From Fodinibius salipaludis (GTDB lineage Bacteria; Bacteroidota; Rhodothermia; Balneolales; Balneolaceae): DNA of 64,000 nucleotides. Below are positions 6,764-27,087 of this stretch, piece by piece. The stretch is taken from positions 62,001-126,000 of the forward strand of contig NZ_NSKE01000005.1 of assembly GCF_002287075.1 (NCBI RefSeq). The letters are read 5' to 3'. The first letter of the stretch is position 1. Each line of letters starts with the position of its first letter. The position numbers were made by a program, and so were the translations under genes. The notes under the pieces were generated by a model, which searched no databases, was not told the origin of the DNA, and saw only the letters and a list, made by a program, of their open reading frames with translations.

Positions 6764-7735
6764 TTAGGTTCCTGCCTTGGCAGTCTTGCCCAACGGTATT
6801 TTATCTACCGCATCCAATGCGGGAGTAGGATCCCCCATAATATAAAAATGGATGCCCGGCGCGCCGCCCTCCAACAACTCGGTGCACTGTTGAGCCGCCC
6901 ATTCAACACCAATTTCTCTTGCATTACCGGGATTCGCTTGTACCTCGTTCGATAAGGCTTCCGGAATATTCAGATGAAAAAACTTCGGAAGGAAATTCAA
7001 ATGTCGCTCACGTGTAAGAACCTTTAAGCCCGGTACAATCGGGCACTCTATGCCGGCAGCTCTGCACTTTTCCACAAAACGAAAATAGGCATCGTTATTA
7101 AAAAACATCTGCGTTACGATATAATCACCACCCGCATCAACTTTTTCTTTCAGCCTTGCTACATCAAAATCCAGATTGGGTGCTTCAAAATGCTTTTCCG
7201 GATACCCTGCGACCCCCACACAAAAGTTCGTCTCATGAGCATTTACGATATCCTCCAGGTATTCCCCCTGATTCATACCCTTTACCTGTTTCACCAGGTC
7301 AATCGCATATTTATTATAGGTCCCATTTTTAATACGGGGAGTAGAATCATCAGGTGCATCTCCCCGAATAGCCAGCACATTATCAATTCCCAGAAAATTA
7401 AGTTCAATCAAGGCATCTTCGGTCTCCTCCTTCGTAAATCCTTCGCAAATTAAATGAGGAACCGGATCTACATCATATTTATGTTTAATCGCCGCACAAA
7501 GACCAATCGTCCCCGGACGTTTTCGTTTGATATGCCGCTTTATTGTTCCATCCGGTAGTTCTTCGTAATATGATTCTGCCGCGTGATAGGTCACATCAAT
7601 AAAAGGCGGATTGTACTTCATCACCTTGTCCAGCGACTCAAAAACCTTATTCACCGAGCCCCCTCTCTTCGGTGGAATGATTTCAAATGATATTAACGGT
7701 TCTGTTGCTCTTTCGTAGTGTTCAATTACTTTCAT
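6764..7735 (-). CDS. metF: methylenetetrahydrofolate reductase
   Basis: A 323-aa TIM-barrel flavoenzyme that reduces 5,10-methylene-THF to 5-methyl-THF, the methyl donor used by MetH. It begins with the family pattern ISFEIIPPKRGG at about 15-26 and carries LAIRGDAPDD, the conserved folate/FAD-site stretch, and VTQMFFNN further on. The length suits bacterial MetF without a eukaryotic regulatory domain. It is divergent from metH, so producer and consumer of 5-methyl-THF share one control region (7736-7901) that contains a foldable leader. Confidence 0.96.
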   Translation of the reverse strand: MKVIEHYERATEPLISFEIIPPKRGGSVNKVFESLDKVMKYNPPFIDVTYHAAESYYEELPDGTIKRHIKRKRPGTIGLCAAIKHKYDVDPVPHLICEGFTKEETEDALIELNFLGIDNVLAIRGDAPDDSTPRIKNGTYNKYAIDLVKQVKGMNQGEYLEDIVNAHETNFCVGVAGYPEKHFEAPNLDFDVARLKEKVDAGGDYIVTQMFFNNDAYFRFVEKCRAAGIECPIVPGLKVLTRERHLNFLPKFFHLNIPEALSNEVQANPGNAREIGVEWAAQQCTELLEGGAPGIHFYIMGDPTPALDAVDKIPLGKTAKAGT

Positions 7736-10900: not shown

Positions 10901-11597
10901 AGTTTTAGGACTGTATCCTGCCAACTCGGTGGGGGATGATGTAGAACTGTATACCGATGATAATCGCGAAGAAGTACTCACTACTTTTCACATGCTGCGT
11001 CAACAGGCCCAAAAACGACGAGGCCAACCCAATAAGGCACTATCAGATTTTGTAGCTCCCAAAGCATCAGGCATTAAAGATTATATGGGCGGCTTTGCCG
11101 TGACGGCCGGAATTGGTGCCCCAGAGCTGGTCAAAAAGTTCGAGGATGATCACGATGATTACAACGCTATTCTTACCAAAGCACTGGCCGACCGGCTGGC
11201 AGAGGCTTTCACCGAACTGTTGCACGAGAAAGTGCGCAAGAAAATCTGGGGATATGCTCCGAATGAAACGTACAGCAATAAATCACTGATCCGCGAGCAG
11301 TACGATGGTATTCGTCCCGCACCGGGTTACCCCGCACAGCCCGACCATACCGAAAAGCGCATTCTTTTTGATCTGCTTGATGTGGAGGATAAAGCAGGAA
11401 TTACACTGACGGAATCTTTTGCCATGCATCCGGCCGCTTCAGTTAGCGGATTGTATTTTGCACATCCCGAATCTGATTATTTTAATGTGGGCAATCTTGA
11501 GAAAGATCAGATCGAGGACTATGCCAAACGTAAAAGCATGAACGTCGAAGAAGTTGAACGCTGGTTGGGACCGAACCTGAATTATGATCCAGAGTAA
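7902..11597 (+). CDS. metH: cobalamin-dependent methionine synthase
   Basis: A full-length B12-dependent methionine synthase of 1231 aa from the ATG at 7902. A GTG lies in frame at 7857 but sits in the leader stem. Domains in order: homocysteine-binding barrel ([12 protein letters not shown] near the start; zinc ligands C248, C311 and C312); pterin-binding barrel from about 350 ([17 protein letters not shown]); cobalamin-binding Rossmann domain with the cobalt-ligand motif DVHDIGKN near residue 759; and the reactivation domain with the AdoMet-binding [12 protein letters not shown] near 1138. The usual cysteine in PACPDH is glutamine here. The last 75 codons are repeated downstream at 12280-12512 at about 80% nucleotide identity, so the present 3' end may have been acquired by recombination. 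Confidence 0.97.
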
Positions 11598-11664
11598 CAG
11601 AAATTGATAAAGAATTACTAAACTTTGGAAGCTTGATAAAGCTTTATAAAGAATAATATAAGTT

Positions 11665-12171
11665 TTATTCTATTTCCAACTGGCGGATATTATCCCTGCC
11701 TACCATATTCATCACTTCTTTCATATTATTAACATTCACCTTGTTGGATTGCACATAATCAACAGGTAAAATGGCTACTCGAAAAACCTGATCCTGTGTG
11801 TATTCATCTCCAACGGTACTCAGATCGGTATCACCGGTTAAAAACAGCTTCACATCCGCAAGCGTATGATCAAATGCATACTGCAATTCACCATCGTCAA
11901 AAAATACCGAGGCGGGCAATGGCTGCCATACATCATTGCCGGTATTTTGATCTACTTCCCAAATCAGGTACACCATAACAATGTCAGTGGATAAAACCTC
12001 AATATCAGGAAATTCAGAAAATACCGTATAATTATTCGATTCATTGAAGCTGGCTTCTACCTCATAGGCCTGCCCCACGGGTCCCGGTGGGCCCTGCGGT
12101 CCGGCCGGGCCTTGTTCGCCTTGGCATGAAACTATAATTATAACTGCCAACATCAGACTGAATTTCTTCAT
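11665..12171 (-). CDS. lipoprotein with short collagen-like segment
   Basis: A 168-aa predicted lipoprotein. The signal peptide ends in a lipobox (IIIVSCQGEQ, acylated Cys at about 16), followed at once by five Gly-X-Y triplets (GEQGPAGPQGPPGPVG), a short collagen-like stretch often seen after the lipid anchor in Bacteroidota lipoproteins. The remaining part is a small beta-rich domain of unknown function (MVYLIWEVD, DVWQPLPASVFFDDG). The start is supported by a strong AAGGAG about 9 bases upstream on the minus strand. It lies between metH and the stranded second copy of the metH 3' end, in the opposite direction, and so is the only gene carried by the apparent insertion. Confidence 0.75.
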   Translation of the reverse strand: MKKFSLMLAVIIIVSCQGEQGPAGPQGPPGPVGQAYEVEASFNESNNYTVFSEFPDIEVLSTDIVMVYLIWEVDQNTGNDVWQPLPASVFFDDGELQYAFDHTLADVKLFLTGDTDLSTVGDEYTQDQVFRVAILPVDYVQSNKVNVNNMKEVMNMVGRDNIRQLEIE

Positions 12172-12279
12172 AGTACTTCTCCTTATTAGGTGAAAATGGA
12201 AACTATATCTTCTGAAGCTTAACGCTCAGTTGTAATGTAATATTTGCTGAGAAATACACATTCACATGGACATGTGATT

Positions 12280-12512
12280 TTTTTGATCTGCTGGATGTGG
12301 AGAATACAACGGGCATTACCCTGCCCGAATCGTTTGCGATGCATCCGGCAGCTTCGGTAAGTGGGCCCTATTTTGCCCATCCTGAATCGGACTATTTTAA
12401 TGTGGGTAACTTTGAAAAAGATCAAATCGAGGATTATGCCAAACGTAAAGATATGAGCGTTAGCGAAGTTGAGCGGTGGTTGGGTCCCAATCTGAATTAC
12501 GAACCGGAATAA
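12280..12512 (+). pseudogene. stranded 3' end of metH (last 75 codons)
   Basis: This stretch aligns without gaps to the last 233 bases of metH (11365-11597), offset by exactly 915. By hand count 65 of 75 residues are identical, with 46 nucleotide differences over 228, mostly in third positions. The reading frame and stop are intact, but the rest of methionine synthase is missing, and homology begins abruptly at a T run near 12280. It is in the same orientation as metH. A hairpin terminator follows at 12520-12546. The synonymous bias says it was selected as coding sequence until recently. A fragment this short contains only the end of the AdoMet reactivation domain and is unlikely to act alone. 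Confidence 0.85.
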
Positions 12513-12519
12513 CATCAAG

Positions 12520-12546
12520 CCTGAAAGATCACAGAGGTCTTTCAGG
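12520..12546 (+). terminator. hairpin terminator after the metH fragment
   Basis: Arms CCTGAAAGA (12520-12528) and TCTTTCAGG (12538-12546) with a 9-base loop, then TTTG. It lies 8 bases after the stop of the metH fragment. No comparable terminator follows the intact metH, which suggests that this is the original metH terminator. Confidence 0.55.
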
Positions 12547-12578
12547 TTTGAGGAGGCTAACTTCACGCTATATTACAA

Positions 12579-13895
12579 TCATTCACTATCAATGTTATTT
12601 ATTGCGCTTCTTATCAGTCCATATCCTAACAAGCCACTTATCAATGAGCCCGATATAATACCAACCTTTGCATACTCTAAAAATACTGGCGACTCAAAAG
12701 AAAGTCCGCCTATGAAAAGCGACATAGTGAATCCTACGCCACTTAAACACGCAAGACCGTACACAATTTTCCATGTCCCTTTTTGCTCAGGAAATGTACT
12801 GAGCCCAACAACCTTCATTAAGAAAGCTGCCGAAAATATTCCTATCTGTTTCCCAACAAAAAGTCCAAGTAAAATACCCCATGTCAATGTTGACGAAAAA
12901 GCTTCTACAATTAATTGGCTATCGAAAGCCACCCCTGCATTAGCAAAAGCAAAAACAGGAATAATTCCATAAGCTACCCATGGATGCAAATGATGTTCAA
13001 GTCTGTGCAAAGGAGATTCCGACTCTGAAACTACATCATCCATATAATTCAATGCCGTCTCACGAGCTTCTCCCTGATCATTTTTCAAAGCATGCTTGAA
13101 AAGGCTTACTGCACCTTCGGCTTTTTCAAGCAAACTATTAAGACTTGTGTTGCGAGTTGCAGGAATTATAAGTCCAAGAACAACTCCAGCAATCGTGGCA
13201 TGTACTCCTGATTTTAGTACCGCCACCCACATTATAATACCCACTATCATATAAAATCCAATCCTCCTTACATTCATCAGATTAAAAATAAGAAGCACGA
13301 TAAAACACCCTGCCGCAACTGCCAAAGCTGTCATTTGGATACTTGCTGTATAAAAAAGTGCAATAGCCATTACCGCAATTAAATCATCAACTACTGCGAC
13401 CGCTGTTAGAAACACCTTTGCCCAGATGGGTACTTTAGACCCCAGTAGCGTAAGGATTCCAATGGCAAATGCAATATCAGTTGCAATTGCTATGGCCCAA
13501 CCCTGCGAGAATTCGGTTCCTGCATTTAACGCGATAAAGATGGCTCCGGGAACTAAGGCGCCGCCCAATGCTGCCACGATAGGAGTAAGTGCAAGTTTGA
13601 AATTAGACAGCTCACCATATTTTAGTTCTCTTTTTATTTCTAAACCAATTAGCAAAAAGAAAACAGCCATTAGCCCATCATTAATCCAAAGCAGCAATGG
13701 CTTTTCAATGTTGAGTGATGGAGTACCCACCGTGAGTGTTGATTGAAAGAAATTAAAATAGCTTTCACTCATAGGGCTGTTGGCAATGAGCAAGGCCAGA
13801 ACTGTAGTAATGAGTAACAAAATCCCAGATGAAGATTCTGTTTTAAAAAACTCTTGAATAGGCGTCAGTGGATTAAATGTTATTTTATTCTTCAT
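12579..13895 (-). CDS. nhaA: Na+/H+ antiporter NhaA
   Basis: A 438-aa inner-membrane antiporter that exports Na+ in exchange for protons. Family features are plain: IANSPMSESYFNFF near the start, LLLWINDGLMAVFFLLIGLE, the adjacent aspartates in TAVAVVDDLIAVMAIA (the Asp163/Asp164 pair of E. coli NhaA), and the C-terminal VGFTMSLFIGGLSF. The segment KHALKNDQGEARETALNYM around residues 270-290 is a cytoplasmic loop typical of the long version found in Bacteroidota. It fits a Na+-exposed lifestyle together with the NhaC-type gene at the right edge. It is transcribed toward the metH fragment. Confidence 0.95.
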   Translation of the reverse strand: MKNKITFNPLTPIQEFFKTESSSGILLLITTVLALLIANSPMSESYFNFFQSTLTVGTPSLNIEKPLLLWINDGLMAVFFLLIGLEIKRELKYGELSNFKLALTPIVAALGGALVPGAIFIALNAGTEFSQGWAIAIATDIAFAIGILTLLGSKVPIWAKVFLTAVAVVDDLIAVMAIALFYTASIQMTALAVAAGCFIVLLIFNLMNVRRIGFYMIVGIIMWVAVLKSGVHATIAGVVLGLIIPATRNTSLNSLLEKAEGAVSLFKHALKNDQGEARETALNYMDDVVSESESPLHRLEHHLHPWVAYGIIPVFAFANAGVAFDSQLIVEAFSSTLTWGILLGLFVGKQIGIFSAAFLMKVVGLSTFPEQKGTWKIVYGLACLSGVGFTMSLFIGGLSFESPVFLEYAKVGIISGSLISGLLGYGLIRSAINNIDSE

Positions 13896-14033
13896 TTCTG
13901 TTCAGATTTATAGGCATGTTATTTATTACCGCTTCTTTTGTTACCATTACCAAGATTTTCTTCACAAATAAATAAGGTTATATGGTAGAAAATGCTGCAA
14001 AAAATCGTGGTTTCATACAACTAAAAGAAGTAT

Positions 14034-16109
14034 TTATGCTTTTAATTTCCTTATAGCATCGGGACTTCCAATAATCGTAAGCTCATCTTCGGCTTCCAGC
14101 ACAGTATCACCGTGAGGAATAATTAAATCATCGTCTCTGTAGATGATAGCTACCAGGCAATCGCCCGGCAAATTAATTTCTCCGATCTTCTTTCCTTTTT
14201 GACGATTTAGGAATTCATTTTCAGAAACATGTAGATGGATAAAATGCTCATCACTTATAAGCACTTCTCTAAGCTGCTTTTCTGATTTTGCCTCGCGCCA
14301 CCGCTGCAGGAAACTGGGTTGGTTTACAATCTCAGCCAAGTGCCCAACAAGGCGCATATCAAGGCCATAAGCTTCTACAGGGGTAATGAGAAACATTAAT
14401 GCATGCTTCTCTTCATCAATATCGCTCGATAATTTATCAACCGAGCTATTTATTCTAAACCCAACCATCTCAGCGGTAGTAATAGCTTCATATCCTATCT
14501 GGCATATAACAACTCCCTTTCCAATATTATGAGTCTTGGTTTTGTATTGTTTCTGCAACTCATGTTTAATCTCATCCGTTCCTTTCTTTGTACGACCCGA
14601 AAATATCTCTGCAGTAATATCTGTGCATTCATCAAGCAACTTGTTGCTTTCACTGATATCTCTGATGACACTCCGAGCTACAACTTGTTCATAAGCTAAT
14701 TTATCTTCACCGTTTTTTTCATTCAGAATCGACATTAGCTCATATTCGAGTGCTTCGTATCTTTTACGACCAAGCCGCTCATGCACATGAAAAATAGCCC
14801 CTTGTCGCTCTATCTTTTCTCCGGCATAATAGAAGTACCAAACGATGCAGAGCACAATCATTATCCCCGTTAGAGATACAGGCATCAGCCCCATTTCTGC
14901 AATGAGCCACACAGGGATTAACATACCAGCTATCTGCACCCATGGATACAGCGGAGATCGAAATCCGGGGGAATATGCCTCAATCTTGCTTTCGCGCATT
15001 ACCACAACTGCAAGGCTCATTAAGCCAAAAAGAATCAATTGAAATGCACTTGCCAGCTTTGCTACCGCTTCTACATCAAAAACTAATAGAACAACCGCCA
15101 TCAAAATTATCGTTACTGTAATTGCAAACGAGGGCGTCCCAGTTTTTCCTAATTTTGAAAATCTGGGACTAATTAACTCATCCCTCGACATTGCAAATGG
15201 GTATCTGGAAGCCGACATAATTCCGGCATTTCCGGTTGATGCGAAAGCAGCAACAGCTGCAACAACAACTGCTGTGACGCCCCATGAACCTGGCAACCAC
15301 GACAAAAACTTTTTACCCGCATCAGCAACGGGAGTAAGACTCGCATAAAATTCTTCAGGATTAAGAACGTTTAACATGATATAAACCCCCAGTACGTAAA
15401 TGATAGCAGCGGTAAAAAGCGACAATATCATGCTCAACGGAATATTTCTATCTGGATTTTTAACCTCCTCAGCAACACTTGTTACCTTTGTAAGGCCGGC
15501 GTATGAAACAATTACAAGTCCAATGGTATAGGTAAAACCATGGAGCCCATTCCGGAAAAAGTCCGAATATTCACTATAGGTGCTCTTGGCTTCTGATCCC
15601 CAAACAACCGATAAACCCTGAATAATAAATACGGTCATGATTCCCAGAAGCGTGGCTACGAGGATACGCTGCAATAACGTTGTCTCTTTGGCTCCATATA
15701 TATTAAGTACCCCAAATATTACTGTGAGAATAAGAGCTAACTGAGTAATTGGTACATTCACATAAAGCGACAGATAGGCCCCCATACCAATTAATGCGAA
15801 GGCGCTCTTAAAAATCAGAGCAAACCAGGAACCAAGTCCTCCCACAGTACCTATCATTGGTCCTAAGCTGCGATCTAAAAAATAATAGGTCCCTCCTGCC
15901 TTAGGCATAGCAGTTGACAATTCTGCCACGCTCAACATCGAAGGTATCATTAACAAACCAGACGCAAGATAGGCTAAATAAACAGATGCCCCGGTTTCAG
16001 CAGCTGCAATTCCCGGCAGCAGAAAGAAACCCGAACTAAACATGGCCCCCGTACTAATTGCATAGACATCAAATAGGCCTAACTCCTTATTAAGTTTTCT
16101 TTTTTTCAT
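14034..16109 (-). CDS. APC-family amino-acid permease with EIIA-like and TrkA-C tails
   Basis: A 691-aa protein of three parts. Residues 1-430 are an APC-superfamily transporter with about 12 spans (LGLFDVYAISTGAMFSSGFF; EEVKNPDRNIP). Residues about 455-620 match the PTS EIIA type 2 fold (ALMFLITPVEAYGLDMRLVG; LQRWREAKSEKQLREVL). Residues about 622-691 are a TrkA-C/RCK-C domain (GKKIGEINLPGDCLVAIIYR; DELTIIGSPDAIRKL). In true EIIA the phosphorylated histidine follows IAIP; here the aligned stretch is VVIC followed by Q537, so phosphotransfer is not expected. The tail is more likely a ligand- or nucleotide-sensing regulator of transport. The substrate is unknown. A 15-bp perfect inverted repeat lies about 230 bases upstream. 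Confidence 0.88.
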   Translation of the reverse strand: MKKRKLNKELGLFDVYAISTGAMFSSGFFLLPGIAAAETGASVYLAYLASGLLMIPSMLSVAELSTAMPKAGGTYYFLDRSLGPMIGTVGGLGSWFALIFKSAFALIGMGAYLSLYVNVPITQLALILTVIFGVLNIYGAKETTLLQRILVATLLGIMTVFIIQGLSVVWGSEAKSTYSEYSDFFRNGLHGFTYTIGLVIVSYAGLTKVTSVAEEVKNPDRNIPLSMILSLFTAAIIYVLGVYIMLNVLNPEEFYASLTPVADAGKKFLSWLPGSWGVTAVVVAAVAAFASTGNAGIMSASRYPFAMSRDELISPRFSKLGKTGTPSFAITVTIILMAVVLLVFDVEAVAKLASAFQLILFGLMSLAVVVMRESKIEAYSPGFRSPLYPWVQIAGMLIPVWLIAEMGLMPVSLTGIMIVLCIVWYFYYAGEKIERQGAIFHVHERLGRKRYEALEYELMSILNEKNGEDKLAYEQVVARSVIRDISESNKLLDECTDITAEIFSGRTKKGTDEIKHELQKQYKTKTHNIGKGVVICQIGYEAITTAEMVGFRINSSVDKLSSDIDEEKHALMFLITPVEAYGLDMRLVGHLAEIVNQPSFLQRWREAKSEKQLREVLISDEHFIHLHVSENEFLNRQKGKKIGEINLPGDCLVAIIYRDDDLIIPHGDTVLEAEDELTIIGSPDAIRKLKA

Positions 16110-16751: not shown

Positions 16752-17001
16752 TTATATTCGTTTTACGAAATGGGAAAGGTTTCCAACTAAAATTACGATT
16801 ACACTACCAACCACTGTATATAACGGCCATGCAATAACCAGCGGTTCTCCCGGCAGCAGGTTATGAATAGGACCTTCAACCATAAACACCAGCGAGACCA
16901 ATCCCACAAAAAACCAATCATTGCATCGGTCTTGTCGGGTTCTGTGAAAAAGCATTAGCTGTAAAACACAGCAATGCGATAGATAATAGTATATATCTCA
17001 T
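16752..17001 (-). pseudogene. scar joining a signal peptide to the tail of an SSS symporter
   Basis: Two unrelated pieces are joined. From the ATG at 17001 the minus strand encodes a clean signal peptide, MRYILLSIALLCFTANAFSQ, then a few codons and a stop. From about 16945 down to 16752 the DNA matches the C-terminus of the symporter at 22037-23572: PDKTDAMIG, then after a one-base deletion in a T run near 16907, FMVEGPIH, LPGEPLVIAWPLYTVVGS and a final VGNLSHFVKRI. The symporter part is thus out of frame with the signal peptide and frameshifted within itself. I read this as a deletion that fused the start of a secreted-protein gene to the end of a downstream symporter gene. Upstream, an AGGAGG at 17069-17074 precedes an ATG that stops after two codons, perhaps another remnant. 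Confidence 0.8.
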
Positions 17002-17212
17002 TAATTTATTTGTCTCTAGAATTGAAATTCTCGATTGATTAATAGTTGTGCCTTTTTATTCCATTTAACCTCCTCTTGATTTCCTTTAAATTGAAAAATA
17101 AACGATAATTTTAAGTGCACAAGAATCACAAAAGAAGTGAATGTTGCAAAATCCCAATATTTGTAATAGAGGTTAGTTTAACCACCAAACCATCATTTTT
17201 TACAAATAAAAA

Positions 17213-17240
17213 AAGCCCACAAGCTTTCACCTGTGGGCTT
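17213..17240 (-). terminator. rho-independent terminator of the SusC-SusD chimera
   Basis: Stem AAGCCCACA (17213-17221) with TGTGGGCTT (17232-17240), followed on the minus strand by a T-rich run. It lies 20 bases after the stop of the chimeric gene, so the truncated gene still has its downstream terminator. Confidence 0.8.
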
Positions 17241-17260
17241 AAAGTCTGCTAAAGCAAAAT

Positions 17261-19495
17261 TTATATCTCGGGATTCTCCGGGGTATTTGGATTGTTCTGA
17301 CGCTCTGATGTAGGATATGGATAGTATACCCTGTTACGTTCTGCACTCAGAGCCGGATCGCTGGATGGAACTGGACGTCCCAGGCGACGTGCATCTTCAA
17401 AACGCATACCGGTTAGGTACATTTCTGCGCTACGCTGTCGATAAATTTCCTCAAACAACTCGGTGTCACTTGTTCCACCACTATAAGCAGGCAAATTAGC
17501 ACCTACACCAAAAGCATCTTGTGACGGCTGCTTTGTGCGAATATTGTCAATCTCATTGACAGCATCACCCGGTCGATCTAGGTTTACGTATGCTTCAGCA
17601 CGAATCAGGTTCATTTCTCCGGGCAAATAGACCGGGATCGGATCGCTGGCACTGGTATAGAATCCTTCTACTTTATCAATCGGAAGCCCATTCGGTGTGC
17701 TCTGTGAATTATCCGGACTAAGATAGAAATCTAACCGTGCATCCCCAGCTTCTGTTACAAAAAGACGGTCTTTATAACCAAATGTCTGCTGACCAAATAT
17801 TCCATAAATAACCGTCTCACTTCTAAATTCTCCTGGCTGTTCAAAGTTGGCACCACCAGAAACAACTCGAGAACCTATGCTAAACTGTTGTGCTTCCAAA
17901 CCGATTGTTTCAACATTTTCATACTGTAGGGTACCGCCAAATAAGGTACTGGAATTTAACCATGGTTTGATATCTGTCTGGTAGCTTATTCTCAGATCAT
18001 TGTTCAATTGGAAAAACGCCCGCTCTGATCGACGACCAAAGCCAGTTGACAAGCCCGGGGCGGAAGTACCGGGCGGAATAAAAGCAGTTCCTACTTGAGA
18101 GTAAGTATCTAAACCTAACGTATGGTCTATAGACAATCCTTCGTGAGGTGTTAATGATAACTTAGCGCTACCAATGACACGGTTAACTTCATTTTGGAAG
18201 TCGTAGGTATCAATTACCTCCAGGGGATTGGCCAAATTTGTATTATTGGGATATTCTCCTGTCTGAGGATCTGGTTCGGGATTAACCGTATTAGGACCAA
18301 AAATAAACCCAGTTAGGGCACCATAGGAAGCATTCAAACCTCCATTGGGAATCTGCTGGTTATTACTATGGGAATAGCTCAGACTTGTTGAAAGGTTCGC
18401 CCAATTCGTCAATACCTGGTCTAGATTCAAACGTGCTGTAGAACGCTGATAATTGGAGCCATCGACGATACCTTCATTATTTTTATGAGAACCTGAAATA
18501 TAATAACGAGTGTCATTAGCTCCACCAGAAATAGACAGAAATTGGTTGGTTCCAACGGCAGTCCTAAAGATATAATCCTGAAAATCATATCGCTTACCAG
18601 ACATTACGTTGCCGCTATTGTCCAGATAATCTCCATTTTCATTTTGTGCCATGTTAACATCCAGGGTCTTACGAACCTTGTCAACATTAACGGTTGACTT
18701 AATAGTTATCGAAGGCGTCCCCGATTTACCTTGTTTTGTAAAAATCTGAACAACTCCATTGTTAGCTCGCGATCCATAAAGAGCAGCAGCAGCAGCTCCT
18801 TTAACAACCTCAATGCGGTCTATATCTTCGGGATTTAAATCTGCAAGACGATTTGTAGAAGTACCTCCTACATCAACTAATTCAGGAGAATCGTTATTTA
18901 CGATCACTCCATCCACAATGTAGAGCGGGCTTGCACTACCAAGAAGAGTACCTGTTCCACGCAGTCGAACACTAATTCCACCTGCGGGATCACCAGAGTT
19001 TTGCTGCACAAGTGCACCAGCAATTTTGCCTGATAGTCCTGCATCAATTTCGGTAACTCCCGTAGAGGCCAACTCATCAGCACTCACTGTAGAAATAGAG
19101 TTACCCAACTGACGTTTCTCTGTCAAAACCGAGGCACCAGTTACAACTACTTCATCCGCTCCAATAACATCCTGTTGAAGTGCAATGGTACCCAAGGCAA
19201 TTTCCTGTTCATCTCCGAACTCAACCTCACGCTCAACCGTCCGGTATCCTATAAAAGTAATGCGCAAATTATAGGTTCCAGGCTCAACTCTTGCTGTAAG
19301 TTCAAAAGTACCATCTGCATCAGCTGATGTACCGATGGTGGTATTTTCAATACTTACATTCGCTCCCGTTAATGGGTCCTCTGTTCGTTGGTCTATCAGC
19401 GTACCAGTAACCGTGTACTCTACGTCTTGCGCTTGCAAAGAAAACGGCAAAAGTAGTAGACAGACAAACGATAGTAGTCGTATCCGATTTGTCAT
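17261..19495 (-). CDS. in-frame SusC-SusD chimera
   Basis: An uninterrupted 744-aa frame made from two different proteins. Residues 1-581 are SusC-like: signal peptide ending SLQAQ, a carboxypeptidase-regulatory beta sandwich (TGANVSIENTTIGTSADADG), DEVVVTG, the plug (RLRGTGTLLGSASPLYIVDG; VVKGAAAAALYGSRANNGVV) and the first part of the barrel as far as GIFGQQTFGYKDRLFVT. From residue 582 (about 17752) it becomes the C-terminal 163 residues of a SusD-like lipoprotein: GEMNLIRAEAYVNLDRPGDA, EEIYRQRSAEMYLTGMRFED, ARRLGRPVP and YYPYPTSERQNNPNTP. A normal pair has about 1000 plus 500 residues, so roughly 400 of SusC and 300 of SusD are gone. It has a good AGGAGA ribosome site and its own terminator. 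The barrel cannot close as in normal SusC, so transport is unlikely. A natural deletion or an assembly collapse are both possible. Confidence 0.88.
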   Translation of the reverse strand: MTNRIRLLSFVCLLLLPFSLQAQDVEYTVTGTLIDQRTEDPLTGANVSIENTTIGTSADADGTFELTARVEPGTYNLRITFIGYRTVEREVEFGDEQEIALGTIALQQDVIGADEVVVTGASVLTEKRQLGNSISTVSADELASTGVTEIDAGLSGKIAGALVQQNSGDPAGGISVRLRGTGTLLGSASPLYIVDGVIVNNDSPELVDVGGTSTNRLADLNPEDIDRIEVVKGAAAAALYGSRANNGVVQIFTKQGKSGTPSITIKSTVNVDKVRKTLDVNMAQNENGDYLDNSGNVMSGKRYDFQDYIFRTAVGTNQFLSISGGANDTRYYISGSHKNNEGIVDGSNYQRSTARLNLDQVLTNWANLSTSLSYSHSNNQQIPNGGLNASYGALTGFIFGPNTVNPEPDPQTGEYPNNTNLANPLEVIDTYDFQNEVNRVIGSAKLSLTPHEGLSIDHTLGLDTYSQVGTAFIPPGTSAPGLSTGFGRRSERAFFQLNNDLRISYQTDIKPWLNSSTLFGGTLQYENVETIGLEAQQFSIGSRVVSGGANFEQPGEFRSETVIYGIFGQQTFGYKDRLFVTEAGDARLDFYLSPDNSQSTPNGLPIDKVEGFYTSASDPIPVYLPGEMNLIRAEAYVNLDRPGDAVNEIDNIRTKQPSQDAFGVGANLPAYSGGTSDTELFEEIYRQRSAEMYLTGMRFEDARRLGRPVPSSDPALSAERNRVYYPYPTSERQNNPNTPENPEI

Positions 19496-19569
19496 AAATG
19501 TTCTCCTATTTAATTGTTATTTCATAGCGACAATCATCGCGAATGCCGCAAATTATAGCTAATAAATAC

Positions 19570-20655
19570 TTATTTAGATGTAGTTAAGCTCTGTATTTTA
19601 TCCCATACTTCAGGATCTTCTTGTCCCAATCGCCATACCGATATTCCACGGAGATCAAATTCTTCTAAAAGTTGCAACTTGGGTTCTATTGATCGCGCAT
19701 CTTCTATAAATGCATATTCAAACACCCCGTCATGACTCCATAACGCATAATGAGTTTGGTGATTTTCAATCCAAACCATATCCGCATCGTAGCGTTCCAC
19801 CAGTCCCATCACTTTTTCATAAGAAGCGCCCCGGCCATTGACAAAACCACCCTGTTCCTCATTGTAATCGGCAAACCAAAAATTAGAGTAGAACGGTATT
19901 CCCAGCGATATTTTTTGGGGATCGATTTCAAGGTCAATCATATACTCAATCATCTCCTTCATCCAAGAAATGCCCGCTACGGGGCCGGGCGGCGTGCGAC
20001 GTGTATGCTGCGAATACGTCATCAGCGAAAGAAAGTCGCCGGCTTCAGCCATTGCTTTTAAATCGTAGGCGCCCCGCCAGTATTCATATAAAAACCGGTG
20101 GTATTCGGTTTTCAGATCAAAATCAGTATTGGTTGGAACCACGGCTGCAGAGAGGGATAAATCATTCTCATGAAATGCTTCAGCTGTTTTACGATAAAAA
20201 TCTGTAAATGCATTACGATCATTAATATGGATATTTTCAAAGTCAAATTGCCAGCCCGCATATCCATGCTTCAACGCCAAATCAACCATCATATTGATTG
20301 TTCGATGCTGAGCTGAGGAATCCTGCAAAAAATTATGGAAAAGCTCGCGATCAAAACCGGGATTCACTACCAGCGGAATAACGTCAATACCTTTTTCCTC
20401 AGCTATTTCCATGACCCGACTGTCCACTTCTCCCCATAAAATGCCGGTTTTAGAAATGGAATAGGTCTGCGGGGCTACAATCGAGATGTGATCGCTGTTG
20501 GCCTCAAAGCTTTCAAATGAATCTTCGGTATCTACGTAGTAGAAAAGATTCTCAGAATTATATTGCGCCTTTGTATCCGAAAAAGCGAGTAAAAATAATC
20601 CGAAAAGGAATAAAAAAGCCAATCCCCTAATACAACATGTGGTTATATTTCCCAT
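19570..20655 (-). CDS. exported glycoside hydrolase family 18-like protein (YaaH/SleL type)
   Basis: A 361-aa secreted protein with a signal peptide (residues about 8-30, ending TKAQ). The body is a GH18 TIM barrel of the YaaH/SleL type, which hydrolyses or binds GlcNAc-containing polymers such as peptidoglycan or chitin. The catalytic strand reads GWQFDFENI at about 133-141: the last Asp and the catalytic Glu of DxxDxDxE are kept and the earlier acids are not, as in the spore-cortex hydrolase branch. Other markers are FLSLMTYSQH, ISLGIPFYSNFW and the terminal GISVWRLGQEDPEVW. It lies in the same direction between the serine hydrolase and the SusC-SusD chimera, 74 bases from the latter, and belongs to the amino-sugar cluster. 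Confidence 0.85.
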   Translation of the reverse strand: MGNITTCCIRGLAFLFLFGLFLLAFSDTKAQYNSENLFYYVDTEDSFESFEANSDHISIVAPQTYSISKTGILWGEVDSRVMEIAEEKGIDVIPLVVNPGFDRELFHNFLQDSSAQHRTINMMVDLALKHGYAGWQFDFENIHINDRNAFTDFYRKTAEAFHENDLSLSAAVVPTNTDFDLKTEYHRFLYEYWRGAYDLKAMAEAGDFLSLMTYSQHTRRTPPGPVAGISWMKEMIEYMIDLEIDPQKISLGIPFYSNFWFADYNEEQGGFVNGRGASYEKVMGLVERYDADMVWIENHQTHYALWSHDGVFEYAFIEDARSIEPKLQLLEEFDLRGISVWRLGQEDPEVWDKIQSLTTSK

Positions 20656-20731: not shown

Positions 20732-21964
20732 TCAATTTTCATTTTTCCATACGTGATTAAAAACAGCTTGTCGAAGCGGCCCTAAATCAAAATAACTGCC
20801 ACCTTCTTGGCGACCAACGTTTTGGCGATTGGTAAGAAAAATAATGGAGAGCGAATCTTGGGGTACAATTAAAATATTAGTACCTGTAAACCCGGTGTGT
20901 CCGAACGTACCATCGGGACTTCCCTCCGCAGCAATAAATGATTTACCCATGGCCCATCCGAGCCCATTGCCATATTGATCTTTGGTAAGAAAGGTATCGA
21001 CGATTGATTCTGAAATGAACTGTTCCCTCTCCTTATATCCTTTATTCATCAATAAATCCACCAGCACCTGTAAATCATCCACCGTAGAAAATAATCCCGC
21101 ATGGCCCGCCACACCACCATTAGCATACCAGGCATTCCCGTCATTGACTTCACCCCAGAGAGTATATTCCCGCCAGCTGTCCCACGACTTCGGATCCACG
21201 TCAACGTTATAGCCAAACTCATCATCATACACCATCTGCTTCTCAAAAGGATTTCCATGGGAAGTGGCCGCAATTTTTTTATACCCTTTTCCCATTGGAT
21301 TAAACATCGTATTTCGCAAATTCAGAGGCTGGTAAAGATTGTCTTCCAAAAAATAATCCAACTTTTGGCCCGATATATTTTCAATAATATCGCCCAGCAA
21401 CATAAACCCCAAATCACTGTAATGTCGACCTTCCCCTACCTCCCATTTTAAAGGTAGATTGGCAATATACCGGTACCGCTCTTCTTTGTCTTCAGCATGA
21501 TAATATGTGGGCACCCACTGCGCCAACCCTGAGCTATGGGTAAGCAGATGACGAATAGTAATCTGGGATTTTTCTCCTTTCTCAAACTCTGGCAAATAGT
21601 TGCGAATGGGATCATCCAATGAAAGAGCATCCTCATCCAAAAGTTTCATAATCCCAAAAGTAGTACCCATTACTTTGGTCAGCGAAGCCACATCAAAAAG
21701 ATATTCGGTCGTCATTGGTTCGGGATTATCCACCTTTTGCATACCATAATCATACTTCTGAGCGTATCCGTAGGCCGCCCGATGCAGGATGGAATCCCCC
21801 TTCCTGATTTGTATCACCGCTCCTGGAATATGATCTTCTTTAATCTCTTTCTGGATGAGGCTGTCGATAGCAGCGATTTTCCCAACCTTTTTAGGCTCCA
21901 CATCGGGATTTGAAGTACAACCAACAAATATCGTTAATAAAAGTCCCAGAAATAGTTTGCGCAT
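20732..21964 (-). CDS. beta-lactamase-fold serine hydrolase lipoprotein
   Basis: A 410-aa predicted lipoprotein (MRKLFLGLLLTIFVGCTSNP, acylated Cys 16) of the class C beta-lactamase/DD-peptidase superfamily. The three active-site motifs are intact: SLTK at about 94-97, YSD near 180 in place of the classic YxN, and HTG near 354 (TFGHTGFTG). Such proteins in amino-sugar clusters of Bacteroidota accompany N-acetylmuramidases and AnmK, and probably act on peptides or lactyl-peptide links of muropeptides; antibiotic hydrolysis is not implied. It shares its direction with the symporter upstream (72 bases) and the GH18 gene downstream (76 bases), so the three probably form one operon. Confidence 0.88.
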   Translation of the reverse strand: MRKLFLGLLLTIFVGCTSNPDVEPKKVGKIAAIDSLIQKEIKEDHIPGAVIQIRKGDSILHRAAYGYAQKYDYGMQKVDNPEPMTTEYLFDVASLTKVMGTTFGIMKLLDEDALSLDDPIRNYLPEFEKGEKSQITIRHLLTHSSGLAQWVPTYYHAEDKEERYRYIANLPLKWEVGEGRHYSDLGFMLLGDIIENISGQKLDYFLEDNLYQPLNLRNTMFNPMGKGYKKIAATSHGNPFEKQMVYDDEFGYNVDVDPKSWDSWREYTLWGEVNDGNAWYANGGVAGHAGLFSTVDDLQVLVDLLMNKGYKEREQFISESIVDTFLTKDQYGNGLGWAMGKSFIAAEGSPDGTFGHTGFTGTNILIVPQDSLSIIFLTNRQNVGRQEGGSYFDLGPLRQAVFNHVWKNEN

Positions 21965-22036: not shown

Positions 22037-23572
22037 TTATTTTTTTCGAATCCAATACGTAATATTCCCAACCATCATCACAATGGCGCTACCTACCACC
22101 GTATAAAGCGGCCAGGCAATGACCAGAGGTTCACCGGGCAATATGCTATGAATCGGACCTTCAACCATAAACAACAGGGAGATCAATCCCACAAAAAAGC
22201 CAATCATCGCATCGGTTTTATCCGGAGCTTCAGAAAATCGTCCCAGCAGAAATGCCCCTAACAATCCACCGTAGGTATAAGAGGCAATTCCAAGACCGAG
22301 TTCAACAACGGCGGGACGTTCCCCCTCCTGGAGTTGTAAAAAAGCAAAGAAGAAAGCAGATCCAGTTAAAATAACGGCCCACACCATCGTAATGATACGC
22401 GAGATCCGCAGATCCTCGGCTTGCGAGTTATCTTTTCCAAAGTAAGGCTTATACAGGTCCAGCGTCGTTGAAGAAGCCAGGGAGTTGAGTGACGAACTGA
22501 GGCTACTCATTGCCGCAGCAAAGAGTGAGGCGATAATTAATCCGGACAGACCCACCGGCAACTGCTCAACAATAAACTTGGCAAAAATTTCATCAGTCGT
22601 TGCCAATCCCAATGCCTCTGCCGATTGTGCATCATAAAACGCATAAAGCAGTAAACCAATAAATAGAAACAGCCCAAACTGCAGGGCAACCACTACGCCG
22701 CTCCATACCAATGCGCGTTGACTATTATCTACGTTTCGGGTTGTAAGAAGGCGTTGGACAATGAGCTGATCGGTTCCGTGCGAGGCCACTGAAAATATCG
22801 CCCCTCCAATCAACGCCGTAAAGAAGGTATAGGGCTGAGCAATAAAGTCCGAGAATGGTTGTCCGAATCCAAAATCAAGAATTTGTAATTTCCCCGCATC
22901 TGCGGCTATCGACATCGCTCCACTCAAACCATTCGGCAAATCAGCAAGGACAATTCCGATGGCCAGCGCCGCACCGCCTATATACACGGCCATCTGCATT
23001 ACATCCATCCACACAACAGCTTTTATCCCCCCAATGAGCGTATAAATAAGGGTTATAATAGATATTGCAGCAATAGCTAACAGATACACCTCGAAATCAG
23101 TCCATCCGATAAATGCCCCTCCAAGGCGAAGGATAATTGCAAGAGGAATAGCCGTAGCAAAAAGACGAACGCCATCAGCCAACAGGCGGGTAATCATAAA
23201 AGTCGTGCTTGTTGCATTCCTCATACCGGGACCGAACCGCTGTTCTAAAAACTGGTAAGCCGTAGTTTGTTTTCCCTTAAAATAGGCGGGAAGTAAAAAT
23301 TTACTGACTAAGATGCGTCCCACAATATAACCCAATGTTATTTGCAGAAAGGTGAGATTTCCTCCATAGGCTACTGCGGGGATACTAATAAAAGTAAGCG
23401 TGCTCGTCTCTGTTGCCACCACTGAAAACATGACCGCCCACCATGGCAACCCTTCGCCTCCCATAAAATAATCCGAGGTTGACGACTGGCGCCCGGCGGC
23501 ATAAATACCCAACCCCGCAACCGCTATCAAATACACGACAATGACAACGTAATCTATGACTGAAAATTCCAA
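22037..23572 (-). CDS. sodium:solute symporter (SSS family)
   Basis: A 511-aa inner-membrane Na+-coupled symporter with about 13-14 spans. SSS-family markers include YLIAVAGLGIYAAGRQ, YFMGGEGLPWWAVMFSVVAT, KTTAYQFLEQRFG-like sequence around 105-115 and SSLNSLASSTTLDLY. The context (AnmK, NagB-like, GH18, serine hydrolase) suggests import of an amino sugar or anhydro-muramyl sugar; this is inference. Its C-terminus, from PDKTDAMIG to the end, is duplicated in decayed form at 16752-16945. It heads a minus-strand operon and is divergent from anmK. Confidence 0.92.
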   Translation of the reverse strand: MEFSVIDYVVIVVYLIAVAGLGIYAAGRQSSTSDYFMGGEGLPWWAVMFSVVATETSTLTFISIPAVAYGGNLTFLQITLGYIVGRILVSKFLLPAYFKGKQTTAYQFLEQRFGPGMRNATSTTFMITRLLADGVRLFATAIPLAIILRLGGAFIGWTDFEVYLLAIAAISIITLIYTLIGGIKAVVWMDVMQMAVYIGGAALAIGIVLADLPNGLSGAMSIAADAGKLQILDFGFGQPFSDFIAQPYTFFTALIGGAIFSVASHGTDQLIVQRLLTTRNVDNSQRALVWSGVVVALQFGLFLFIGLLLYAFYDAQSAEALGLATTDEIFAKFIVEQLPVGLSGLIIASLFAAAMSSLSSSLNSLASSTTLDLYKPYFGKDNSQAEDLRISRIITMVWAVILTGSAFFFAFLQLQEGERPAVVELGLGIASYTYGGLLGAFLLGRFSEAPDKTDAMIGFFVGLISLLFMVEGPIHSILPGEPLVIAWPLYTVVGSAIVMMVGNITYWIRKK

Positions 23573-23845
23573 AAAGACCTCTTTTTTGAGCTTATAATTA
23601 TCAACTCCAGCTTTTTATTGAGCCCAATATTTGTTGGGTTGCCCAAAAATAAGCGGTCATTATTATAGTGATTTATTTTTAGGATTACAGAACATGCTTA
23701 AATATTACGCTGAATGCTCTCATAGCCCTCATATAATCCTACTCAGCAAAAACTAAATTAGTATAGATTTTTCTATTGCTATCAATCCTTAAATACCGTT
23801 GATTATAGCATCTTGGTAATTTCTCAAATCCAACAATGTTTGTTA
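23573..23845. promoter_or_regulatory. divergent control region of the symporter operon and anmK
   Basis: 273 bases without a gene, between oppositely directed operons. It contains a small hairpin, CCCAA (23623-23627) with TTGGG (23634-23638), about 50 bases upstream of the symporter start. No consensus promoter could be assigned. Confidence 0.35.
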
Positions 23846-25042
23846 ATGAATCCCTCTGTTGAAAAACTCTATAGCATTGCGCAAAAACCGAGTAGAACTG
23901 TCATTGGATTGATGTCGGGGACTTCACTGGATGGGTTGGATATTGCTTTATGCCAGATTAATGGTAGTGGAAACGAAACGGGGGTAGAACTGAAAAACTT
24001 TAAGACTATTCCCTATGATTCCGAATTAAAAAAACGTCTTAAAGCTATAAGCTCAGTCCAACAAGTTTCTCTGAAGGAGGTTTGCCTGCTGCACTCTAAG
24101 CTTGCCGGGCTACATGCAGAATTTATTCTTTCAGCTTTGGAAAAGTGGGATATCAAACCCGACCAAATAGATTGTATTGCCAGTCACGGGCAAACCATTT
24201 ATCATGCTCCCAAAATTCAGCATCGTCAGGACGACTCCCCAAATACCACCTTACAAATTGGAGATGGTGATCATATTGCCCGCAAAACAGGTATTTTAAC
24301 GATTAGCGATTTTCGTCAGAAACATACGGCAGCAGGCGGAGAAGGAGCGCCCCTTGCAGCGCCGGTCGATCAGATGCTTTTTACCCATGAGTCGGAAAAT
24401 CGCATCTTATTGAATATCGGCGGCATTGCTAATTTTACATATCTACCTGCAAGTTCCAATCCTGACAAGGCACCCATCACGACGGATACTGGTCCCGGGA
24501 ATACGCTCATTGATAATGCTGTGCAAAAATATTTTGATAAGGATTTTGACAAGAACGGCCGTATCGCAAGGCAGGGTTCTGTAAATAAAACTGCTCTCAA
24601 GGCACTCAAAACGGATCCTTATTTCAAGAAATCCTTTCCTAAAACAACCGGCCCCGAAGTATTTAATTTAGAGTGGATGCAACAACGACTTGACAAATCA
24701 AAAGTTGGGGATATCCCATCCGAAGATATAGTGGCCACCCTCACCCGTTTATCGGCAGATACTATTACTGAATCCGTAAAAAAGGTAGTTTCAGATTCTC
24801 AAAATATCATTATTTATGTGAGCGGTGGTGGTTTTCACAACCCTGTGCTTATGGATTGGCTTAACGAGTTATTGCCCGACTGCCACATTTTATCTTTTGC
24901 TAAAATCGGCTTTGATCCCGATGCCAAGGAGGCCGTTATTTTTGCAATATTAGCCAACGAATTGCTTGCCGGAGAAGGGTTTTCAATAAATACTGACAGT
25001 AATAAAAAAGTTAATTTTGGCAAAATTTCTTTCCCAGAATGA
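23846..25042 (+). CDS. anmK: anhydro-N-acetylmuramic acid kinase
   Basis: A 398-aa sugar kinase that opens the 1,6-anhydro ring of anhydro-MurNAc and phosphorylates it to MurNAc-6-phosphate, a step in peptidoglycan recycling. The glycine-rich phosphate motif GLMSGTSLDGLDIA lies at about 21-34. Other hallmarks are IASHGQTIYHAP, LQIGDGDHIA, DFRQKHTAAGGEGAPL and the kinase glycines in VSGGGFHNP. A TTG at 23813 extends the frame, but the ATG at 23846 gives the usual N-terminus. The gene is followed by the NagB-like gene after about 116 bases. No murQ etherase is visible in the window, so the fate of MurNAc-6-phosphate must be handled elsewhere. Confidence 0.93.
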   Translation: MNPSVEKLYSIAQKPSRTVIGLMSGTSLDGLDIALCQINGSGNETGVELKNFKTIPYDSELKKRLKAISSVQQVSLKEVCLLHSKLAGLHAEFILSALEKWDIKPDQIDCIASHGQTIYHAPKIQHRQDDSPNTTLQIGDGDHIARKTGILTISDFRQKHTAAGGEGAPLAAPVDQMLFTHESENRILLNIGGIANFTYLPASSNPDKAPITTDTGPGNTLIDNAVQKYFDKDFDKNGRIARQGSVNKTALKALKTDPYFKKSFPKTTGPEVFNLEWMQQRLDKSKVGDIPSEDIVATLTRLSADTITESVKKVVSDSQNIIIYVSGGGFHNPVLMDWLNELLPDCHILSFAKIGFDPDAKEAVIFAILANELLAGEGFSINTDSNKKVNFGKISFPE

Positions 25043-25158
25043 GTAATTGGACAAACTTTCAATAATTGATAAAACCAAGTTTTACGTTAGAAATAATATT
25101 GCAGTAATTCGAAATTCCCGGAATCTATTTCACTTGCACCTAATTGAATAATATTATT

Positions 25159-27087
25159 ATGCAAAACGACGCTAAAAAAAATCGTCTAACTTATTACGAA
25201 AATATTCCCACCGATATTTTTAAAGATGCAACCACAGCTTCGAAACATGTTGGCGAAGAGATTGCCAATCTCATCCAAGAAAATAATTCCGTTGGCCAAA
25301 CTACGGTACTGGGATTTGCTACCGGCTCGACTCCCACCCAAGTGTATGACGAGCTTATCCGGATGCACAATGAAGAGGGACTTACGTTCCAAAACGTGAT
25401 TACGTTTAACCTTGACGAGTATTTCCCGATGGAACCAGAATCGCTGCAAAGTTACGTGCGATTTATGAATGAACATCTTTTTAATCATATTGATATCCCG
25501 GAAGATCAGGTACATATCCCCGACGGCACTATTGCGGAAGAAGATGTGGCGGAATATTGCAAGAATTATGAGCAAAAGATTCAAGATGCTGGTGGTCTTG
25601 ATATTCAACTGCTGGGTATCGGACGAACAGGACATATCGGTTTTAATGAACCCGGCTCGCGTCCCAATTCCGGCACCCGCCTTATTACCCTTGACGGCAT
25701 TACTCGAAAAGATGCGGCCAGCGACTTTTTCGGCGAAGAATACGTACCACGCCGCGCCATCACTATGGGGGTTGGTACCATCCTGGATGCCGATCGCATC
25801 ATTATGATGGCATGGGGGGAGGGCAAAGCACCTATTATAAAAGAAACAGTAGAAGGTCCCATACGCGAAAGGGTTCCTGCAACTTATCTACAAAAGCATA
25901 ATAACGCACAGGTTATTTTGGATGAGGCCTCGGCCGAAAACCTCACCCGCAAAAAAACGCCCTGGCTACTTACTACCTGCAATTGGGATGACAAATTGAT
26001 TCGCAAAGGTGTTGTTTGGCTCTGCCAAAAAGTGGATAAGCCTGTCCTAAAGCTTACCGATGGAGATTATAACGAACACGGCATGGGCGATCTTCTTACC
26101 CAGTTTGGGCCGGCCTATGATATCAACCTAAAGGTTTTTAATGAGTTACAACATACCATCACAGGCTGGCCGGGTGGTAAACCTAATGCCGAGGATATTG
26201 ATCGACCCGAACGTGCTGAACCTTATCCAAAACGTGCTATTGTTTTTAGTCCTCATCCCGATGATGATGTCATTTCTATGGGCGGTACACTCATTCGCCT
26301 GGTCGAGCAAGAACATGAGGTACATATTGCTTATCAGACATCGGGCAATATTGCTGTTTTTGATGATGATGTAATACGCTTTGTAGATTTTGTCTCGGAG
26401 TACAACGAGATGTTTGATATGCAACAGGAAGAAGCTGAAAATATGCTTGGTGAAATCAAGCAATTTATTAACCAGAAAGAGCCCGCAGAAGTTGATTCCC
26501 AAGCAATAAAACATATTAAAGGACTCATTCGGCGAGGTGAAGCAAAAGCTGCTGCACGCTATTGTGGAGTGCCGGAAGAGAAACTCCACTTTTTGGACAT
26601 GCCCTTTTATGAGACCGGCCGCGTGAAGAAAAAACCACTCTCAGAAGACGATATCGATATTATTATAGATCTGCTCCGTGAAGTTAAGCCTCACCAGGTT
26701 TATGCCGCCGGCGACCTTTCTGATCCACACGGAACCCACCGTGTTTGCCTGAAAGCCATTCTATCTGCACTTAAAGAGTGTCAAGACGACGACTGGATGC
26801 AAGATTGCTATATCTGGCTCTACCGCGGAGCCTGGCAGGAATGGGATATTAACGAGATTGAGATGGCGGTGCCTTTAAGTCCGCAGGAATTGGCAAAAAA
26901 GCGGCGCGCTATTTTCAAACACCAATCACAGAAAGATCGTCCGCTTTTCCCCGGTCCTGATGAGCGTGAATTCTGGCAACGTGCCGAACAGCGAAACCGT
27001 GAAACCGCCCTGCTCTATGATGAACTTGGTTTTGCCGAATACGAGGCCATTGAAGGATTTGTGCGATATAAAGAGCTGGATAAATAG
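25159..27087 (+). CDS. nagB: glucosamine-6-phosphate deaminase-like protein fused to PIG-L deacetylase domain
   Basis: A 642-aa two-domain cytoplasmic protein from the ATG at 25159 (an in-frame TTG at 25144 is less likely). Residues 1-265 are NagB-like, with FNLDEYFP (catalytic Asp at 86) and GIGRTGHIGFNEPGS. H159 and E164 of the ring-opening triad are present, but the position of E. coli Asp141 is T157. Residues about 355-630 are a PIG-L/LmbE deacetylase: SPHPDDDVISMGG and the distal DPHGTHRV supply the zinc ligands. The arrangement is widespread in Bacteroidota and suggests GlcNAc-type deacetylation coupled to deamination in one polypeptide. The Asp-to-Thr change leaves the deaminase activity uncertain. 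It belongs with anmK in the amino-sugar cluster. Confidence 0.9.
   Translation: MQNDAKKNRLTYYENIPTDIFKDATTASKHVGEEIANLIQENNSVGQTTVLGFATGSTPTQVYDELIRMHNEEGLTFQNVITFNLDEYFPMEPESLQSYVRFMNEHLFNHIDIPEDQVHIPDGTIAEEDVAEYCKNYEQKIQDAGGLDIQLLGIGRTGHIGFNEPGSRPNSGTRLITLDGITRKDAASDFFGEEYVPRRAITMGVGTILDADRIIMMAWGEGKAPIIKETVEGPIRERVPATYLQKHNNAQVILDEASAENLTRKKTPWLLTTCNWDDKLIRKGVVWLCQKVDKPVLKLTDGDYNEHGMGDLLTQFGPAYDINLKVFNELQHTITGWPGGKPNAEDIDRPERAEPYPKRAIVFSPHPDDDVISMGGTLIRLVEQEHEVHIAYQTSGNIAVFDDDVIRFVDFVSEYNEMFDMQQEEAENMLGEIKQFINQKEPAEVDSQAIKHIKGLIRRGEAKAAARYCGVPEEKLHFLDMPFYETGRVKKKPLSEDDIDIIIDLLREVKPHQVYAAGDLSDPHGTHRVCLKAILSALKECQDDDWMQDCYIWLYRGAWQEWDINEIEMAVPLSPQELAKKRRAIFKHQSQKDRPLFPGPDEREFWQRAEQRNRETALLYDELGFAEYEAIEGFVRYKELDK

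Follow-up and report, generated by a model that had tools for sequence, protein, structure and literature searches.

An in-frame susC-susD chimera in Fodinibius salipaludis, most likely a dead gene left by deletion through a 7-bp repeat

How does one open reading frame come to begin as a SusC-type transporter and end as a SusD-type lipoprotein, and is its product a protein of a new kind? The question is raised by a frame at 17261-19495, reverse strand, in the DNA analysed here (the window: 64,000 nucleotides of Fodinibius salipaludis, positions 62001-126000 of the 310,580-base contig C35). An earlier note, made from the sequence alone, had described a single 744-residue frame that passes from SusC to SusD with no stop. 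That description is correct, as judged from the frame itself, from Pfam and NCBIfam matches and from comparison with a relative: the frame has an ATG start, 744 codons and no internal stops, and in it SusC residues 1-581 are followed by the final 163 residues of a SusD. We annotate it as a probable pseudogene, for the reasons that follow.

The susC remnant (17752-19495, reverse strand) encodes the signal peptide, a CarboxypepD_reg-like domain (residues 29-118 in a Pfam scan), the Plug domain (127-248) and the first 10-11 or so barrel strands, as counted on a model of an intact relative. Like a SusC/RagA transporter, residues 28-581 align to positions 2-555 of the 981 in the NCBIfam profile TIGR04056, but the score of 332.1 bits lies below the curated cut-off of 368.25, and the last 11 of 22 predicted strands are missing. 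The susD remnant (17261-17758, reverse strand), delimited as the C-terminal 163-165 residues by domains and by the match to the relative, includes a SusD_RagB domain (PF07980) at residues 620-715 of the fusion (25.8 bits, gathering score 23.1). Unlike a SusD/RagB lipoprotein, the fusion begins with the SusC signal peptide and has neither the lipoprotein signal nor the N-terminal half of SusD. The PF07980 match spans profile positions 156-235 of 297; we considered this partial coverage as a sign of damage and rejected it, since an intact SusD from the same genus covers the same stretch (157-235, 33.9 bits).

The frame is also furnished with expression signals, as had been claimed. By eye, an AGGAG ribosome site precedes the ATG, and the C terminus, which reads ...NTPENPEI, is followed beyond the susD stop by a stem-loop and T-run terminator (17204-17260, reverse strand), the last part to align with the closely matching block of the relative described below. 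No other lesion was seen in the frame, in agreement with the earlier note.

Searching with the whole fusion protein in 58 genomes (the window's own and 57 relatives) returned some SusC-type match in all 58. The nearest genome was of the same genus, G002. Its matches fall in two places separated by 2 kb, one for the first part of the fusion (96%) and one for the last part (90-96%). These are two intact genes at locus L021: susC at 12487-15432 (981 residues, 96% identical to the first part of the fusion) and susD at 11130-12464 (444 residues, 96% identical over the last 165 residues of the fusion), separated by 22 bp and in different reading frames. The neighbours are those of the window: PBP4B-like and sodium:solute symporter (SSF) genes flank the pair on one side and metH lies at some distance on the other, so that the intact pair that had been proposed for search in the nearest relatives is present at the same locus. 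Among solved structures, G002 SusC matches SusC/RagA chains (best 8aa4_A, E 2.9e-72); for G002 SusD the search gave no significant match (best E 0.03).

Window and L021 align in two collinear pieces, 17204-17758 with 11066-11627 and 17752-19915 with 13689-15843, which overlap in the window by exactly 7 bp. Side by side, the fusion is without 2,068 bp of the G002 layout, a size that, like the repeat, is judged against another species and not against the strain's own parent genes. Measured in the same way, 400 SusC residues are missing, the number given before, and about 280 SusD residues, not the 300 given before.

The 7-bp overlap (17752-17758, reverse strand) is the word GTAACAG, an exact microhomology common to the G002 susC and susD genes. 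The fusion tracks susC to ...CGTCTTTTTGTAACAG and susD from GTAACAG on. The word lies in codons 580-582 of susC and 280-282 of susD, begins at codon position 1 in both and encodes Val-Thr; because the phase is the same in both genes, the in-frame join needs no special explanation. At random breakpoints between the two G002 genes, identity of at least 7 bp arose with a frequency of 0.000575 (200,000 draws), which makes coincidence an unlikely account of the repeat at the junction. The extended stretch of 14 bases is identical at 12, a level reached by 18 of the 3,877,426 pairs of 14-mers between the genes. GTAACAG is one of 242 exact runs of at least 7 bp common to the G002 genes, and not among the longest, which are six runs of 10 bp; that it is only one of so many is a point against reading the join as a scar. 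Codon phase is shared by 136 of the 242, hence an open frame after a deletion of this type would be expected about as often as not. The open frame over the junction, put forward earlier as the main reason for interest, thus loses most of its force.

Because the two genes are intact at the corresponding place in a related species, we read the chimeric frame as a dead remnant and not as a new kind of protein: it is, with high confidence, a deletion scar and most likely a dead gene, which upholds the suggestion of a scar left in frame by chance. An adjacent susC-susD pair would have lost the intervening DNA between its two copies of GTAACAG in a short-repeat deletion, presumably of the slippage or end-joining type. 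The same-phase Val-Thr word would have left the frame open across the join, with start and signal peptide inherited from one parent gene, and stop and terminator from the other.

Chimeric pseudogenes formed by deletion between short direct repeats are a known general class. The locus resembles that class in that two neighbours are joined at a 7-bp direct repeat with all between them lost; intact parents are found in relatives, the breakpoints fall in the repeat and the deleted DNA is missing. It differs in being joined in frame, an outcome expected in about half of cases for this pair.

The age of the deletion can be approached through the divergence of the remaining halves. Between the window's genome (G000) and G002, dS and dN are 0.231 and 0.0186 for the susC part and 0.275 and 0.0216 for the susD part, whereas dS in the neighbour genes is near saturation (metH 1.61, SSF 1.81, PBP4B 2.18). 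In the comparison with G002, which took in 39.4 kb of the window (all but 19901-20499 and 40001-64000), only 17204 to about 19520 (reverse strand) aligns at 91-94% identity, other aligned stretches being at 63-82%, with the exception of a 35-base paralog match inside susC (89%). The block begins and ends close to the start of susC and the terminator of susD. Because dS is 0.23-0.28 within the block and 1.6-2.2 in the three neighbour genes, the susCD block was probably exchanged between the lineages as a cassette after their split, and the deletion would postdate the common ancestor of the two blocks. With three outgroup copies to assign substitutions to branches, the G000 branch carries 9 nonsynonymous and 39 synonymous changes and the G002 branch 12 and 40, with 8 and 30 unassigned. 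The share of the G000 branch that evolved neutrally has an upper bound of about 0.05, or 0.15 and 0.23 under cautious assumptions. The few nonsynonymous changes and the lack of further decay would fit a young deletion, and we infer that it is recent; the fusion frame shows neither a second lesion nor relaxed constraint, however, and a selected product would look the same.

It is possible, though we consider it rather unlikely, that the deletion is real and is carried by part of the population or by the sequenced strain only, as a segregating allele. A very recent event is consistent with this, and each species is represented by a single genome in the set used. Such an allele would refine the scar reading, and the likelihoods of the two overlap.

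An error of assembly or library preparation is improbable. Here the strain would have an intact pair whose halves were wrongly joined, and two facts lean that way: the assembly is a draft (3.58 Mb in 39 contigs, estimated 98.94% complete), and the join occurs in no other genome among 128 of the order that were searched. Against it, a 7-bp word is too short to confuse an assembler, being far below assembler k-mers, and the junction, at about position 79,750, lies inside contig C35 and away from its ends. When the deleted stretch was sought in the window's assembly with a 5,451-bp G002 query, three matches were returned, all at this locus and none inside the deletion; the missing 2 kb was found on no other contig. 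Collapse between repeats, which the earlier note had listed among its explanations, is therefore unlikely.

A second scar about 0.3 kb downstream of the chimeric frame also speaks against an assembly error. By comparison with G002, the signal-peptide start of an outer-membrane-protein gene is here fused with the 3' end of an additional SSF copy (16768-17030, reverse strand). The gene start occupies 16942-17030 and its body is gone, the G002 version having 286 residues; the extra SSF end, at 16768-16939, is 81% identical to the window's SSF gene. By eye, the frame at this scar stops after 27 codons.

If the deletion scar is real, the remaining matter is whether its product has been kept. The same fusion was sought in other genomes, as had been proposed. 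A 117-residue query centred on the junction found matches in 13 of the 128 genomes of the order, and only the window's own genome covered residues 1-117 in one frame. Eight others (G002, G009, G011, G013, G104, G106, G039 and G050) have susC-side and susD-side matches in different frames, of 815-1008 and 443-463 residues, respectively, and in the remaining four the only matches are weak and susC-like (E 1.4e-4 to 5.4e-4, frames of 970-1046 residues). Several single-gene matches extend from a few to about 20 residues beyond the junction, but their frames have the usual length of a SusC or a SusD. Full separate susC-susD pairs are present in G009 (two tandem pairs), G011, G013, G039, G050 and Chitinophaga sp. 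CB10; at the G009 locus (L022:3658-14732) the arrangement is two tandem GH18-susC-susD units, with all frames full-length.

A broader single scan of genome contigs, which may omit records of the window's own genome, gave 13 loci: the record of G009 (76%) and twelve that match on the susC side (26-42%). The matches at L034 and L041 reach residue 617, past the junction, in frames of 1072 and 1165 codons with SusC-like closing strands. As in SusC, the final residue is aromatic in 12 of the 13 frames. The exception, in Prevotella sp. (L044:8858-10984), has 709 codons, was matched only at 185-257 and has no SusC-like closing strand; it is possibly another shortened SusC.

Of the 11 SusD matches in the window's genome, 10 fall in frames of 443-584 residues, the only longer frame (751) being the fusion. 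SusD was also searched for by profile in 12 genomes of the genus. One candidate among the matches listed, a reported 1659-residue frame in G011 (C13:178040-178522), was rejected as a fusion, as its DNA shows two genes: at L055:3595-8550, a TAA at 6988-6990 ends a 1131-residue SusC, and a separate 505-residue SusD starts from 7033. The reported 1659-residue frame length does not fit the L055 sequence. The premise that SusC and SusD are always separate proteins met no contradiction in the 128 genomes or among the matches listed for the 12.

What the fusion has lost was assessed on a structure model of the intact G002 SusC, in which we counted 22 barrel-type strands after residue 255; the count was made in the knowledge that 22 were expected, merging 723-727 with 730-742 and omitting the five-residue 710-714. 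On this count, from low-confidence models, the fusion retains 10 strands and the first residues of the 11th and has lost the last 11, and so is not a complete 22-strand barrel ending in an aromatic residue. Mean pLDDT was 51.8 for the fusion (19-sequence alignment) and 50.3 for the intact-SusC control (8 sequences), and only the succession of strands was used; with the control equally low, the low value for the fusion should count neither for nor against a novel protein. The last SusC residue, F981, is invariant in the eight complete SusC proteins aligned and is lost in the fusion. According to PMC12611786, TonB-dependent transporters are 22-strand proteins related to SusC, and a protein being inserted into the outer membrane of Gram-negative bacteria pairs with BamA through its C-terminal strand. 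Because half the barrel with its closing strand, the lipoprotein signal and the first 280 or so residues of SusD are missing, the product should neither assemble as a transporter nor serve as a SusD lid, and from the loss of strands, lipobox and SusD half we infer a loss of function.

A new functional protein is a less likely reading than a dead remnant, and most likely not the right one. Such a protein would consist of a plug with half a barrel attached to one half of a SusD, and selection would have retained it, for instance as a decoy or a signalling remnant linked to TonB. This is very improbable: the open frame with its start, signal peptide and terminator speaks for it, as does a number of nonsynonymous changes no higher than that of the G002 branch (9 with 39 synonymous vs 12 with 40), but the junction is spanned in one genome of 128, the closing strand, lipobox and N-terminal half of SusD are absent, and the substitution result is equally expected from a young deletion. 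That the joined frame is translated, exported and selected as one plug-bearing chain, a covalent SusC-SusD product that does something other than transport, is likewise very improbable. The new protein that the earlier note had entertained finds no positive support here, with the parts for barrel closure and lipidation missing and one genome spanning the junction.

A natural SusC/D fusion in Flavobacterium johnsoniae was considered as a precedent and dropped, as PMC5127042 describes two separate CusC/CusD pairs. The fusion mentioned in PMC10404256 is of BtuG1 and BtuH, not of SusC and SusD. In a light search of open-licence papers on SusC-SusD fusions, in-frame deletion pseudogenes and susCD exchange, no such fusion was named in the titles and abstract openings covered.

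Upstream of the chimeric frame lies an intact GH18-family gene (19570-20655, reverse strand; PF00704, 87.1 bits), followed by a serine hydrolase of the beta-lactamase family (20732-21964, reverse strand), for which the best NCBIfam match is PBP4B, below the model cut-off. Profile matches further identify the SSF sodium:solute symporter (22037-23572, reverse strand) and an anhydro-N-acetylmuramic acid kinase, AnmK (23813-25042, forward strand), and by eye there is a NagB-like gene at 25144-27087. The family names in this set suggest that the locus scavenges amino sugars or peptidoglycan fragments. The G002 copy of the GH18 gene (L021:15643-16185) has an internal deletion and leaves a 180-residue frame that lacks the WQFDFENIH stretch found in the window; this loss is a decay event of its own, on the side of the relative. 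Together with the second scar it counts in favour of the deletion reading, as further decay at the locus.

The chimeric frame, as a deletion scar, carries a caution: an open frame over a gene junction alone is no evidence for a new protein, because deletions between short repeats often keep the frame, as 136 of the 242 shared words would here. It also shows an uptake locus of amino-sugar or peptidoglycan type that loses and swaps parts, in which the susCD pair apparently passes as a cassette from one Fodinibius-like lineage to another and the neighbouring genes remain in place.
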